Shown: piece after piece, positions 1,354-48,240 of the stretch | How the letters are laid out: every line of letters begins with the position of its first letter | How positions within the stretch are numbered: position 1 is the stretch's first letter | Assembly (NCBI RefSeq): GCF_020921035.1 | Contig: NC_063151.1 | Span: 29,580,934-29,644,933 of the forward strand | From: Rhodamnia argentea | Taxonomy: Eukaryota > Streptophyta > Magnoliopsida > Myrtales > Myrtaceae | Length of the DNA stretch: 64,000 bases | Direction of reading: 5' to 3' | The notes under the pieces: generated by a model | The model's input: only the letters and a program-made list of their open reading frames with translations | The model's database searches: none | Told to the model about the DNA's origin: nothing | Position numbers and translations under genes: made by a program

Positions 1354-2374
1354 TTAAAAAATTATCAAAAAAATTTTAAATTTATTATAATTATGTCGAT
1401 TTATCCTTAAATATTTTTTTTCCTATTCAATTCTCAACCTTTTACAATTATGCCATTTCAATTCATTCGACAAATTTTGATCGGCTAGTAGTGATATGGA
1501 TGCCGATTAGCCGACATCATAATATTTTAATATTTTTAATTCTTTTAATTTTTTTTTTCCCTCACCTCTCCTCTACCACCTCCAGCCGGTCGCCAATTGG
1601 CCATGGTGAGGCCCGACCGTGCCCTCGGCGGGCAAGGAAGTGACGGCAAGGTCGAGCCTTGCCTCGCCTCGCAAGCCCAGATCTGGAGTACATATCCAAC
1701 AAAGCAGTCGAAACAATCACCGGACATTCAACTCCAGCTCTCACAGTATAATCGGGTTATCGACTTGCCAATCCTCGATAACCCAACAGCGGCAACAGCA
1801 GGCCAAATCGTGACCAAGGGGATGGAGTCAGGCCTCTGTCCTTCCTCCAGCACGTGCAAAACCAACTCAAGGGCAGGAGCTTCCCAGCAAATTCTGGGCA
1901 TAACCAGAAAGGATCGTATTCCAGGAGACTAAGTCTCTACGCGGCAATCTGTCAAACATTTCACAATCCCAGTCATGACAAACACATTGGAGGCGATCGC
2001 ATTAGCCACCAGTTGTCCATGAATCTCCTTCCCTCTCCTAAGGTCTGCAGTGTTGTCGCCGGGTGAGGAAGCGACGGCAAGGTCGAGCCTTGCCCGGCCA
2101 TGGCGAGGCTCGGCCTTGCCGGCCATCGACTTTGGCCCGTCGCCGATGTTTAGTGACCGGCTGGAGGTGGAAGAGGGGAGGGGAAGGAAAAAAAAAAGTA
2201 AAAAGAAAGAAAAAAATAAAAACATTAAAATATTATGTCGCCGATGGGCTGGTGTCCACGTCAATGTCGATGCCGACCAATCAAAAGGTTTAGGACAAAA
2301 TCGACAGAAAAAAAAAAATTAAGATTGAAATGGTACAATTACAATGGATTTATGACTTTTTTAATAATTTCTCT
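1354..2374. mobile_element. Pack-MULE: Mutator-like element carrying a PPR gene fragment
   Basis: A 1,021-bp non-autonomous element. The ends are long inverted repeats: about 180 bp of AT-rich sequence continuing into a GC-rich block, with CCACCTCCAGCCGGTC near 1576-1591 and its complement near 2156-2171. The flanks are a 9-bp target duplication with one mismatch, gttaaacgg (1345-1353) and gctaaacgg (2375-2383), as expected for Mutator transposition. No transposase. The unique middle (about 1679-2047) is a piece of a pentatricopeptide-repeat gene in antisense orientation, listed separately. The mismatch in the target duplication and the divergence between the inverted repeats indicate an old insertion. 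Confidence 0.85.
1679..2047 (-). pseudogene. Captured PPR gene fragment (CRR22-like), inside Pack-MULE
   Basis: Translating the minus strand gives consecutive blocks of a PLS-type pentatricopeptide repeat protein. In order they are DLRRGKEIHGQLVA, ASNVFVMTG, then VFDRLPRRDLVSWNTILSGY, then ALELVLHVLEEGQRPDSIPL, then RIGKSI, then VECPVIVSTALLDMYSRSG. The blocks lie in different frames, so the copy has at least two frameshifts or small deletions and also lacks the usual 'DMYAKCG' step after the second block. The wording is closest to my memory of Arabidopsis CRR22 (At1g11290) and relatives, which are organelle RNA-editing factors. It covers about two and a half repeats, has no start, and cannot make a functional PPR protein. 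It may give antisense transcripts to its parent gene; that is inference. Confidence 0.8.
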
Positions 2375-2383
2375 GCTAAACGG

Positions 2384-4621
2384 ATGTGTATTTTGTCTAA
2401 TTTCGCGTTCCCTGCTAGAGAACAAGGAGTTAGCAAGACAGGGACAATGGCAATAGCTTTGGAGCGGCTTCATAATCGGTTTGGATTTAAAACTAATCTT
2501 AGTTACAATCAGTTTCTTAAATTGTGAAAGTCGGAACCTATCGTACATACCTCACAAGAAAAATTCACATTTTGCAAATAGCAACAATCCATAAAAAATG
2601 AACACGTAAATTAAAGTAAAAAATGAAAAGTTCAAAACACGTGACATAAAACCTGGACTATAGAATTTCAATCCTCAACCATCCATGAAAAAATTGCTCT
2701 AAATCCTAACCACTTGAAATAAAAAAGAAACAACAAACACATAAACCGCCGGATGATAGCTTTTAAATAAAATTATAGTAACTAACTAAAATTATTATTA
2801 CAAAGGCTCACCACATATATTCATTCCACTTTAGCTCATAAATGTTATTAAACGACAATAGTCTTATCACTAAAACAATCCATACAAAAAAGGAGAGGCG
2901 TAGTTTGTTATTGCTAGCAATAGTAAAAAGAGAATTACGATTAACTCAAGTCGGTTTCATCGGTTCTCGGTTCCATGATCCTGGTTCCTGGTCCAGTTCT
3001 TCGGTTCCCACAGTATTGCACAGTATGGGTTTCACTTTTTTTTTTTTTTTTAATAGAGGAACCAGATTGGGAATTGTGGGAACCTGGAACCGGACCGGTT
3101 CCTATGGATGATTCAATCTGGTTGCCGGTTCTAACGTAAACCCATGCTCACCCCTAGTCTTGGAGAAGCTCTTTTTAAGTGGTTCTTCGTTTTAACTTCC
3201 TTTTGTAGTTTGGGTGGATATTATGGCTTTCGCGCTCTCGTTTTCCAATTAATTCAAAACACCAGGAAACTTTCAAAATACATAGATATCAACATTTGAA
3301 ATATAGAGGGAAAATCATAAGCACAATTTTAGAAGTAAAACGAACGAGTCGTCTGGAACGAGTTCTTAGGTTTATACATGGTAGATAGAATGATGCTGAT
3401 TAATCTTATTTCTGCTCGCAGTATTTGCCGAACTAAGCAGTACTTGCTTGACCTGAATTTGAAACTGTATTTCAATGTCGACAATGTCGAATGGTCAAAG
3501 GTGGTGTTTGTGATTAAATTTGGTTCATCGCAAACCGAGTGATCGGAGCTACCGGACACGATGGATCTCACTCGAGGTTCACACATTGGACGGTTTAGAC
3601 CATCTCGGTCCATACCGGACAAAGTCTAGACCCCAGACAAGGCGGACGCCGGGTTGGAAAACGCTGTCGCCGCAATGGGATGTCGAATGCCGTTCCTCTA
3701 AGGCTCCTACTCGAGATGGGGAGCGGGCCGCGTTCTTTTGTTTTGTTATCCAACTCCCACATTGGGCTTGTTTCGGCCCAAAGTGTTGCAGGCCCATAAC
3801 GAGAATTGACATTCATTGTCCAGTGTCATCTCCTAGATCTATTCGGTCGGTTTATGCAGGGTCGGCGGCGCGTGCTGAGGACCCGTTGCTGTCCAAGGAC
3901 GAGACAGATTTCTGAACGAAAGGTTGAAATTGTAGATGATGCTCCGCTTTATTCTTCTTTCCGGCATCCTTCGATCCTTTCCCTTCGTTGCCAATGCGCT
4001 GTTATTTTCTGTCGCTTTGAATGAACACCCGACGACCACAAGCGAAAAGGAAAAAGAGTCCGTTCGAGGTGGCAGCACACCACAAGAGTCCCAGTCTACT
4101 GGAATTTCAATGCGATTGGGCAAATTTAGGAATGCAAGTTTTTTTGAATTAAAACTGTCAGGTCTCTTTCAGCGACGACTTTGGTGGCGGCGTCGGATAA
4201 TGGTGTTCACGGAAATGCCACTCCCCCCCAAAGATCAATGAACCTGTCCCCGTTTCGTCACTTTTGAGCTCTTTCGATGCCCTTTTTGGTCGGCATTGGG
4301 AACGTGTGACCACCCCTTTTTGATCGTCAAATTCGTGCTCATTTAAACCGTGCATTCTTCGGAACGAAAAAGAAAAAGGAAAAAAACCATGCACTTGATG
4401 AGAATCATCATCTTGTTTACTTGGGTTTGGCACGGATCCGGTCCTATCCTCACGGGGCTTTGTCTCGGTGTCCTCGAACATTCGAGTGCCGTTGCCTAAT
4501 CGACTAAGATCCAATGATCGTCGCTGAACATTATGCCGTTTTTCAAGAAATTGGAATCTCGGCGGCTGATCTATAACACATTTAGTCCAGGTGACAAACA
4601 TGTCAAGGACACAGTTTATTT
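2384..4621. other. Intergenic, one hAT-like relic, otherwise unrecognised
   Basis: Apart from the hAT-like piece at about 2940-3156, I recognise nothing. Open frames at 3520-3915 (131 codons) and 4158-4655 minus (165 codons) have no family motifs, unusual composition and no splice context, and are probably chance frames. Confidence 0.45.
2940..3156. mobile_element. hAT-like relic with GGTTCC-rich body
   Basis: The body is dense in GGTTCC/GGAACC words, and the right edge reads ccatgctcacccctag, the complement of the TAGGGGTGAGCATGG-type terminus seen in plant hAT elements. The left terminus is not recognisable, so the copy looks truncated. No coding sequence. Confidence 0.4.
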
Positions 4622-5352
4622 TGGGGAAAAGTACAAAAGAAAGTCCTGAACACAATTGGATTTGGTACTAATTCAGCCAGGACAGCAAAAAGAAAATGTT
4701 TTGCGTTAGTCTTTCTTCACGTGATGAAGACAAGGAACTGACAGATGCAAAGGATGGATAGAGACTGAAATGTATTATGGTTCATATAAGCAAAGGCAAG
4801 ATGAAATCATTTGAACACAATTTGGTGCACATCGGTTAGAGGCGGCCGACATGTAGCTCTAAACCTTTTTATTTTGTACTAATTGAGTTCATTTAGTTAA
4901 TTTTAGCCAGAAACCGTTGACGTGAATTTTATTTTTATTTTTTTCCTTTTATTTTCTATTTTTATTTAATTATTTTTCTCTAAGGGGTCGGCAAGGGCCG
5001 CCGGCCGACCCTCGTTGTGGCCAATGAAAGCTTGGTGAGGGCCACCGCACCCTCGCCGGCCAAAGGGAGGGCATGCGACCCCTCGTCCGGATCTCGCGAG
5101 AGCCGAGATGCCTTTTCAAAAAAATATATTAAAGAATAGAAAATAAAATAAAAAATAAAAAATATATTAAAAATGTCCCCGTTAGTTTCGGCCATGCCGT
5201 GTGGGACGGTCGGCATTTACGTTAATGGTTTCGAATCAAAATTGATCGAATGGACTTTATTGATATCCATACAATAAGTTTAGAACCAAATTGATTAAAT
5301 TAAAAAGGTTGGACATTGAATCAATACCAATGTAATATGTTTACGATCTTTT
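4622..5352. mobile_element. Long-TIR Mutator-like element, decayed
   Basis: The left part (4622-4680 and 4850-4935) and the right part (about 5225-5352, complemented) are inverted copies. Shared wording includes the 'GTCCTGAACACAATTGG' / 'GTAAACATATTACATTGG' line and the 'GAAACCRTTRACGT' line. The left repeat is interrupted by about 170 bp of unrelated sequence. The centre (4982-5100) is a GC-rich block (GGTCGGCAAGGGCCGCCGGC) like that of other elements here. No clear target duplication and no transposase. Confidence 0.55.
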
Positions 5353-37569: not shown

Positions 37570-38790
37570 GGGAAAAATTATAAAAAAAATCCTAACCTAT
37601 TATACTTTTGTCAATTCAGTTCTAAATCTTTTTTTTGTACCAATTCTGTCCTAAGCCTTTTGCATTTAGACCGATTCAGTCTATTTGACCAACTTTGACC
37701 GTCGGTGCTGACGTGGACTCGATCGACCCTGACGGGAAACTTTTCATAATTTTTAAATATTTTTAAAATTTTTTTATTGATCTTTCTTTTATTTAACTGT
37801 TCATCTTCTTCCCCTCAATTTGTTCAACTTGTGACCACTGTAAGTGACTTTTCCAATTACATGTCGAAAGCTTAAGCAAATGGATGTCATAAAAAGGATA
37901 GTATTTGCCAGAACCCTATGCTAACCGTATGGGATAGAAATAAAAAATGGCACCCTCAGATCGCTGTCTAGTTTCCTAATAAGGACAGCAGCAGCCGTGC
38001 GAAGCTAATCCACCCATGGCTGCGGCGAGGCTGACCTCACGCAGCCATGGCATCGCATCGCCGTCATTGGGCAAGGTTCGGTCTCTCTCGAATTTGGTGA
38101 TGCTTGGCTGTTGCCATTGCTGGGTGAGGCCGGACCTGCCCAAGCTGCTTGTCTTCCACGCCGTCGACATTACCCGTGCCTCCTCCAAGCAGACCGAGGC
38201 CAAGGTTGACATCCACCGCCCTCCCCCCTCCAGCTTTGCCCATCTGTGACATCAACTCCATCACGAGCCATGGATCCTCATCGACAAGAACGACAAGTAT
38301 AATGAGAAGGACAGTCATGGTGTCGCCGTTGCTTGGTGAGGTCGAGCTCGCCCAGCGACAGGGAAATGACGCCATAGCTATGCGAGATCAGCCTTGCCCA
38401 ACTACGGCAGCGGCACCAGGGTCCGACGAGAACTCTCTGGAGAAAGATGCCAGCGACCTCTTGGAGAAGGGAAGGAAGAAGATAAACAGTAAAGACAAAA
38501 AAGGAAAGAAAAGGAAAAATTAAAAAATTAAAAATGTATATTAGATATAGTTAAAAATTGCCTAGTCATCGTTGCCTGACGTCCACGTTAGCATTGACCA
38601 ATTAAAGTTGCTCGGATGGATAAAATTGATAAAAATACAAAAAAGTTTAGAACTAAATTAGCACAAAAAAAAGTTTAAAATTGAATTGGCACAAATGCAA
38701 AAGATTTAGGACTGAATTGATAAAATTAAAAAGTTTATGACTAAATTAGCAAAAATGCAATAGGTTTATGACTTTTTTGACAATTTTCCC
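37570..38790. mobile_element. Mutator-like element with 9-bp target duplication and GC-rich core
   Basis: 1,221 bp. The inverted ends are about 200 bp: GGGAAAAATTATAAAAAAAATCC at the left, GGGAAAATTGTCAAAAAAGTC (complement) at the right. Both continue with 'CCTATTRYAYTTTTG', 'CAATTCAGTYCTAAATC' and 'GACCAACTTT…GACGTGGA'-type lines. Flanks gtgactttt (37561-37569) and gtgtctttt (38791-38799) form a 9-bp duplication with one mismatch. The core (37976-38510) is GC-rich and starts with CAGCAGCCGTGCGAAGC. Parts look coding, for example DKNDKYNEKD and LLEKGRKK in different frames, but I cannot name a source gene. No transposase. Confidence 0.8.
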
Positions 38791-46163: not shown

Positions 46164-48002
46164 CTTCCGTGGCACCAAAATAATGTTCATTGCCCCTTTG
46201 CTGTCCTGGCATTTTACATCTGGAGATGCTGCGATGTATTTCTTCTCGCTTTTCTGGTTGGTTAGGGAATTATTCTGCTTCTCATTTGATGAATTCTCGT
46301 TGTAGATTATTTTCTCCAATCATTGATTTTGAACATGTTATGATTGAGAGAGCATTCATCTTCTACCAAGCCATGGAAACGCTGGCTGATCTTTGGATCA
46401 TTAGCGAGTGAAGTTCCCAACTGATTGAGGCAAGATGTGATAGGCCGTACATTCTTTCTGTAATGTATTCAATGAGCATAAACCTGACTGAAAAAAAAAA
46501 AAAAAATCATCGAATCGCTATAGAACTTTTGCCTGGTCATTTCTGCTTCCTGCCCAATTTTTTTACATTCCTGGAGTTCTTTATGTAGCGGCTACCTGCT
46601 TCCTCTATAGAGGCTGGCTCTTCATTTTATTTTCACCATTGATTGTCCAGAGAAAAATTCTTGCCCAATTGGAAGATAGTTGTTGTAGAGTAAGTCATCT
46701 CTGGAGCTGGTTAATCGATTACTTGCATCGTGCTTTCGTTTTCTTTAAGAGAGTATGTGCCTTTGGTTCTACTTGTCTAAGCTACCTCGTCCCAGTTACT
46801 GCTACTCTGGTGCTATTTTCATGTAACAGGTCATATGTTATTGCTGTAGTTGCAATTCCTAATTGTTTTATGCAAATTCTTGCAGAACCCTCTTATAGAT
46901 TTGCCAAAATTGCCGCTTCCCTCTTACGGAAAAGAGGAGTCCTTGATCGGTATTGATTCCCAGTGCCGTAAAAGAAATCGACACGGGTCATTCGTTGACT
47001 GGTTGCTTACTGCATGTCGGAATTACCTTTGCCATTTTCACGCAGCCCGGTACCTGAAACTCCATCCTTCTTCTGTAATATGATGGTCGGCATTCAAACT
47101 CCCAAGCGATGCTGCGAGTCCCAAATACAACCAATTGATTTGTGCCACTCGTTGTCTGTGAACAGAAAGAAAAGTCGTGATGAGAATAGTGGATCCTCCC
47201 AGCCTCCAATTAATGCCATCGGACATCTGGTAGTCCGCCGTCGCAACAAAGGTACCTTTCCGAGACTGTTACTCAATACGAAGCGACGCGAAGCTTATCC
47301 GGAAAAAAGAAAGAAAGAAAAAACTGGGAAACTCTTGTCCCATCCCAAGATGCTCGGTCGCCTCTTGTTTCCGAGTCAACAGCATCAGCTGAGTCTGTCC
47401 CTCTTCCCCCCCGACGCGTGGCGCTCAGCCTAACCACGTATCTCCGCCACGTCCTGCGTGACACGTAAGCTCGCCACACCTTTTAGCTTATCCAAATCTT
47501 TGGAGTTTAACCTCGTGGTTCTGCCATGTCAAAGGCGTACGGATCGCGACACGTGTCTTGAGCGGTGTCACGTGGCAATGTGAGGAAGATATGCTGTGCT
47601 GTGCTGTGCTGACTTCGCTCGGATAAGGCGTGAAGTCGCATTCCTTACGACTTTCGGGATTTGCTTTTCCTCGTCATCGATTAGTTTAAGAAAACCATCG
47701 ACATTATCTTTGTTTCTCGTTTTGGTATCTGAGGTGGTTGGCAGATAAGTGTGGAGGAGAAGTTTTATCATCCGCATCATCATCATGGAGAATGGAGCGG
47801 GTGGATATCGTTCTACTTTACCAACACCTTCTGGATTTTTCTCCACAAAAATTACGGCTCAATTGAAATGCGTCAGATATCTAAATCGAAATGTCGTTTG
47901 TCGTTGAAATGGTCACGCTTGTGCCGATTAGCCAAAAAGACTCTGATGGTCTTTATGTGCAGAAGCAAGGAACAAAGAGCTGGACTCCTACTTGAAAAAC
48001 GG
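46164..48002. other. Intergenic region with a G-box cluster but no gene
   Basis: 46164-46500 is the 3' UTR and flank of the WD40 gene (A-tract at 46490). The open frames at 46639-47433 have no family motifs. 47435-47576 holds five ACGT-core motifs, listed separately. Short (CTGTG) repeat at 47592-47611. Confidence 0.4.
47435..47576. promoter_or_regulatory. Cluster of five ACGT (G-box/ABRE-like) motifs
   Basis: CACGTA (47435), CCACGTCC (47447), GACACGTAA (47460), GACACGTGTC (47548-47557, a perfect palindrome) and TCACGTGGC (47568-47576). Such density suggests an active or former ABA/light-type promoter, yet no gene that I can recognise starts on either side within 1.5 kb. Confidence 0.4.
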
Positions 48003-48240
48003 ATAATTACTAAAAAAGTGCTAATTTGTTATAATTATGCTAATTTAGTCATAATTTTTCTTTTTAGACATAGGATTGGGAGTCTCGAGGTGCCCTCGCC
48101 AACACTGGGTAAAGGTGTCGCGGCTCTCATAGCGGGTCGGCCAAAATTAACCGGATGGATCGAATTGTTACAAATGCAAAATGCATTACTAAATTGGCAT
48201 AATTGTAATAAATTTAAGACTTCTTTAGTAATTTTTTTGG
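48003..48240. mobile_element. Small inverted-repeat MITE
   Basis: The left ATTACTAAAAAAGTGCTAAT and the line TTATAATTATGCTAATTTAGT pair with the complement of the right …actaaattggcataattgtaataaatttaagacttctttagtaat. Arms are about 45 bp around a 130-bp centre with a small GC-rich part. Non-coding; no clear target duplication. Confidence 0.55.

Follow-up and report, generated by a model that had tools for sequence, protein, structure and literature searches.

Structure of the element

The interval 1354-2374 of the window, the 64,000-nucleotide stretch of Rhodamnia argentea DNA analysed here, is occupied by an element of 1,021 bp (G000:C2:29582287-29583307, in a genome of 346.7 Mb and 74 contigs). 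The AT-rich left inverted arm covers 1354-1596 on the plus strand; it is related to the family tip GGGAAAATTACCAAAAAAGTCCTAAACC... but diverged, and the arm has matches elsewhere in the genome. It is followed by a GC-rich inner part (1597-1685), whose last 17 bp (1669-1685) form a filler beside the cargo, which is common to a sibling element on contig C9. The cargo is located at 1686-2053 on the minus strand and is read here as a captured fragment of a PPR-DYW gene on contig C5 (L032:4569-4974), carrying a 40-nt deletion and two 1-bp insertions; the captured segment has a GC content of about 50%. On the other side, a second GC-rich inner part (2054-2149), with family matches elsewhere in the genome, leads into the right long inverted arm, which lies on the minus strand (2150-2374). 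The cargo is bracketed by two copies of a 44-bp direct repeat of the repeat family D4, both on the plus strand, of which the first is found at 1625-1668 (86%) and the second at 2056-2099.

The arms are about 225-243 bp long and are identical in 124 of 164 columns (76%) across about 200 bp from the tips, the longest ungapped pair being 72 nt with 81% identity (1525-1596 and 2150-2221). Their local alignment score is 89, compared with a maximum of 39 among 500 first-order Markov shuffles, and the long inverted ends described in an earlier note on this DNA are thus real. The same note had found no transposase. Indeed, arms, GC-rich inner segments and cargo fill the whole interval, and none of the 150 listed matches to the MULE transposase domain PF10551 lies inside 1354-2374. 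Directly outside the arms, the sequence reads gttaaacgg on the left (1345-1353) and gctaaacgg on the right (2375-2383), which agree at eight of nine positions and represent a target site duplication with one mismatch.

The arm family and its target site duplications

The left arm has at least 48 further matches in the genome (best E 2.5e-36) and the right arm at least 56 (best E 3.3e-31). A tip consensus, GGGAAAATTACCAAAAAAGTCCTAAACCTATTGCAATTGTG, was read by eye from aligned arms, the arm tip also being given as GGGAAAATTACCAAAAAAGTC; it matched 330 places with at most three mismatches, whereas the reversed-pattern control matched none. A point against the reading is that the window element's own tips are more diverged than this three-mismatch limit; its link to the family rests on the arm alignments.

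Target site duplications were scanned in 35 fetched loci, in which 25 arm pairs were found, the window's pair included. Flanking 9-bp repeats that agree at eight or nine positions are present in 12 of the 25 pairs, compared with only 5 of 600 mispaired flank combinations, a background that bears out the 9-bp duplication with one mismatch proposed earlier for the window element; on the opposite side, 13 of the 25 pairs lack a good 9-bp repeat. Five loci outside this count were inspected by eye: L061 has a perfect repeat of 10 bp, L062 a perfect one of 9 bp and L063 one matching at eight of nine positions, L060 has one arm only in the stretch examined, and L057 has a 1.1-kb arm pair with flanks that show no repeat. 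Target duplications of MULEs are given as 8-11 bp (PMC6446971), and the combination of long arms and a 9-bp duplication fits the Mutator superfamily.

Genes for MULE transposases are abundant in this genome, with at least 150 matches to PF10551, out of 474 candidates, that scored above the cut-off. By-eye comparison of the listed tip matches (about 100 of the 330), the arm matches and the 150 listed transposase matches revealed no transposase-bearing element with these arms. L057 was considered as an autonomous partner, as it had been opened as a near arm-transposase pair; it turned out to be an arm pair without transposase and was rejected. An empty site was not found in the plant's own genome either, the joined C2 flanks matching their own halves only. 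Two further stretches of the window belong to the same family: another arm pair of about 1.2 kb at 37573-38787, inside which related arm segments are repeated, and arm-like matches at 48002-48237, which occur in both orientations about 0.2 kb apart.

Besides the window's own pair there are 24 arm pairs, and the interiors of three of these were used for genome searches. The first (L040) was found at 13 places, itself included, 12 of which match over at least 649 nt and one over 323 nt; the second matches itself only, and the third has several full or partial relatives. No second captured host gene was identified, as 10 frames chosen from 48 listed ones, three frames of L040 among them, gave no Pfam match at E 0.05. 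The earlier note had suggested a search for sibling elements with other cargo; further family members are present, including one on C9 with the same cargo, and other host cargo did not appear in the three interiors and 10 frames covered. L040, L061 and L062 form an amplified sibling subfamily with a common interior of about 840 bp, and 6 of the 13 places are clustered on C2 at 17.57-17.63 Mb. The arm pairs L004 (C8) and L063 (C11) also have interior sequence in common; further relatives are located close by on C8, and C6, C7 and C10 contain more distant ones. Judged by these matches, it is possible that this represents a second amplified interior.

The cargo and its donor gene

A search of the whole genome (346.7 Mb) with the cargo gave three candidates, all of which were scored: the window, C5:1572568-1572973 and C9:26266443-26266862. 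The C5 parent, for which the earlier note had proposed to search, is a PPR-DYW gene. The match falls within an open frame of 816 codons that contains PPR repeats, an E motif and a DYW deaminase domain, and the gene may be CRR22-like (Arabidopsis CRR22, At1g11290), as the earlier note had it. The donor stretch of about 406 bp is internal to the coding sequence, and its counterpart in the window is 1686-2053, which corrects the previously assumed cargo limits of 1679-2047. The C5 gene can be aligned with the window over the cargo only, and no family arms were found in the surrounding 9.9 kb. The earlier note had held that a captured fragment should have ends that recur in the genome and PPR homology that does not run past the inverted repeats; many further copies of the ends are present, and the parental homology ends inside the arms.

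Relative to its parent, the window cargo is frame-broken by the two 1-bp insertions and the 40-nt deletion, and its PPR pieces therefore lie in more than one frame. The PPR blocks reported for the minus strand are real, but the two that were quoted sit in different frames, and the peptide given as VFDRLPRRD... actually reads MFDRLPRRD....

The sibling element on C9 and its shared junctions

In the C9 copy (L033, about 4154-5165), the cargo is flanked by arm sequence on either side. A single unbroken alignment with the window element begins in the left arm, crosses the cargo and extends into the GC-rich segment on the right; the right AT-rich arm forms a separate match. Both copies depart from the parental sequence at the same two break points. 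At one of these junctions, the 17-bp filler GCAAGCCCA.A.CTG is common to the window and C9 copies apart from two differences, and the parent differs there. The same cargo with the same junctions is thus present in more than one insertion, and since the C2 and C9 copies have identical break points and the same filler, there was probably one capture, followed by at least two separate insertions.

The right arm of the C9 sibling is interrupted at L033:5165 by a sequence beginning TGTCACGCC... / TGTCACGCCCCGA, which looks like the end of a retrotransposon. A diverged copy of the first part of this sequence (69-71% identical) lies 4.7 kb further on, and the two may be an old pair of long terminal repeats. 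A search of the next 24.5 kb on that side with one fuzzy pattern did not recover the missing right tip. As this sequence cuts off the right end and the tip was not recovered, the target duplication at C9 cannot be read. Another element with inverted arms, which are 76% alike and have partial similarity to the arms of the window family, adjoins the C9 sibling (L033:3214-3966).

In the cargo, parent and sibling differ at 38 of 406 positions, parent and window at 38 of 366, and sibling and window at 51 of 366. Ten changes are unique to the parent branch, a figure that takes in any change in the copies before their split, 23 to the sibling and 27 to the window, in addition to one three-way site; a shorter parent branch would be expected from drifting copies and a constrained donor. 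The sibling-window distance is 0.154 after Jukes-Cantor correction. Transposon sequences change at a rate near 1e-8 per site per year, at which this distance would mean some 6-8 million years, or more under the slower rates of woody plants.

The arms of the window and C9 elements are 72-79% identical over 160-190 columns (70-82% by segment), compared with 86.5% for the cargo. They are no closer to each other than the arms of unrelated family members, which are on average 76% identical (s.d. 3.5%, 1012 comparisons); this counts against a special relationship of the arms, and the case for common descent therefore rests on the cargo and the junctions. As the arms are less alike than the cargo, arm swapping among family members was considered. 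However, in the control trio L040, L061 and L062, the interiors are 92-96% and the collinear arms 81-91% identical, arm divergence being about 1.1-2.7 times interior divergence. Greater arm divergence is thus usual, and arm exchange, although it may have taken place, was dropped as unneeded.

Origin of the element

Taken together, the interval 1354-2374 is almost certainly an old non-autonomous Pack-MULE that carries a fragment of a PPR-DYW gene. The earlier note had come to the same reading, which is now supported on several counts: the parent gene is open and no arms were found around it, a sibling carries this cargo with identical junctions, the arms belong to a large family, and 9-bp duplications occur in this family. 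According to the proposed course of events, about 406 bp of the interior of the C5 gene were copied into the GC-rich centre of a member of this arm family, probably by gap repair with template switching or by the fusion of two neighbouring elements. Capture from C5 is shown by the common sequence, by an open donor near which no arms were found and by sharp break points. The element would then have been mobilised at least twice by a MULE transposase that was supplied in trans and recognised the arms, giving rise to the C2 and C9 copies, and insertion would have produced the 9-bp target duplication that is seen at the window copy and at roughly half of the arm pairs in the family. Both copies have decayed in the meantime: the reading frame is lost in the window, and at C9 nothing points specifically to coding constraint. 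For the plant, the element is probably without a function today.

The direct repeats at the cargo sides, which are shorter in the C9 sibling (30 bp, 87%), would fit gap repair that restarted upstream, or a fusion of neighbouring elements as modelled in PMC8903248, but they are only suggestive. The GC-rich module is also repeated in several other family members, and a capture mechanism based on these repeats is therefore not secure. As in the tandem-insertion model for Pack-TYPE elements (PMC8903248, PMC13317346), at least as outlined there, the cargo is central between element-derived segments and the GC modules are in direct orientation; unlike in this model, no arms were found at the C5 donor gene (9.9 kb). 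Tandem insertion is thus neither shown nor excluded as the mechanism of capture here.

Alternative explanations

It has to be considered whether the parental PPR gene is regulated by antisense or small RNAs that originate from the element. MULE arms are described as being able to carry promoters and to be associated with siRNAs (PMC3310237, PMC6446971), and exact matches to the parent are retained by 30 of 348 21-mers of the window cargo and 54 of 386 of the sibling. However, the majority of the 21-mers no longer match the parent, and the antisense orientation is by itself no evidence, as the cargo at C9 has the opposite orientation on its contig; such a regulation is very unlikely. A wider proposal, in which either the C9 frame is translated into a short PPR peptide whose tail is encoded by the arm or both copies are a source of small RNAs by which the parental editing factor is tuned, would be similarly improbable.

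It is hardly credible that the C9 sibling serves, and the window copy formerly served, as a functional chimeric gene whose 172-codon PPR-plus-arm protein is under selection. The C9 copy has kept an open frame of 172 codons (L033:4488-5006) with a PPR_2 match (E 8.7e-08), and a comparison of parent and sibling gave a dN of 0.069 and a dS of 0.227 (NG86). Furthermore, 18 of 38 changes between the two are synonymous, compared with 11.4 under the null (P about 0.01); however, this count includes the parent's own changes. On the sibling branch, which was also credited with the differences in those 40 columns that the window copy lacks, 12 of 28 changes are synonymous (null 8.4 +/- 2.2, P 0.08), while the frameshifted window copy gives 10 of 28 (null 7.1, P 0.13). 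Since a copy with a broken frame behaves in much the same way, the synonymous excess of the sibling is not specific, and the branch-wise synonymous test revealed no specific signal of coding constraint on the C9 frame. Constraint is not significant on the parent branch alone either, where 5 of 10 changes are synonymous (null 2.8, P 0.11). In addition, a frame free of stops is expected in 43% of neutral simulations, a short PPR tract is all that remains of the gene and the right arm is broken.

The least probable explanation is that a truncated PPR pseudogene, either a retrocopy or a segmental duplicate, ended up by chance within a MULE or with MULE sequence at its sides: the 44-bp direct repeats that bracket the cargo would be compatible with it, and the parental frame is uninterrupted over the captured part, which makes intron loss useless as a test, but the fragment begins and ends within the coding sequence, neither a 3' end nor a poly-A tract is present beside it, the homology stops inside the arms and the two junctions common to the C2 and C9 elements largely refute it.

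Relation to known Pack-MULEs

The capture of host sequence by a Pack-MULE is an ordinary, known process; Pack-MULEs have been published before, and so has a PPR fragment inside a transposon of grapevine. Like the Pack-MULEs described for rice, tomato, Arabidopsis and sacred lotus (PMC4858842, PMC3310237, PMC4053705), the window element is non-autonomous, has long arms and contains a host fragment whose parent lies elsewhere, and a single capture is present in more than one copy. With 1,021 bp, it falls within the size class of 1,000-1,200 bp reported as the most abundant among tomato Pack-MULEs (PMC3310237). It differs from the published elements in its genome and its arm family, and its cargo of about 50% GC contrasts with the strongly GC-rich captures reported in rice (PMC4858842).

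The earlier note had regarded such captures as less described in woody dicots, which is weak as a claim of novelty. A grapevine study of 2008 already reports transduplicated fragments in all class II superfamilies, among them a Mutator family with cellulose-synthase sequence, as well as the CACTA element Cactavine-5, which contains an inverted fragment of a PPR gene and for which its authors raised the idea of an antisense transcript (PMC2528002). As far as the account given there goes, Cactavine-5 and the window element are thus both class II elements of a woody dicot with part of a PPR gene; the grapevine fragment, however, lies downstream of a transposase frame in a CACTA element, whereas the one described here is part of a Mutator-like element without transposase. 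In sacred lotus, a non-woody eudicot, 1,447 Pack-MULEs have been counted (PMC4053705).

The general view of Pack-MULEs is left unchanged by this case. As the donor, two daughter insertions and the junctions are all visible, the capture is well resolved and might serve as a worked example in this genome; it shows that elements with these arms have carried host coding sequence to new places.
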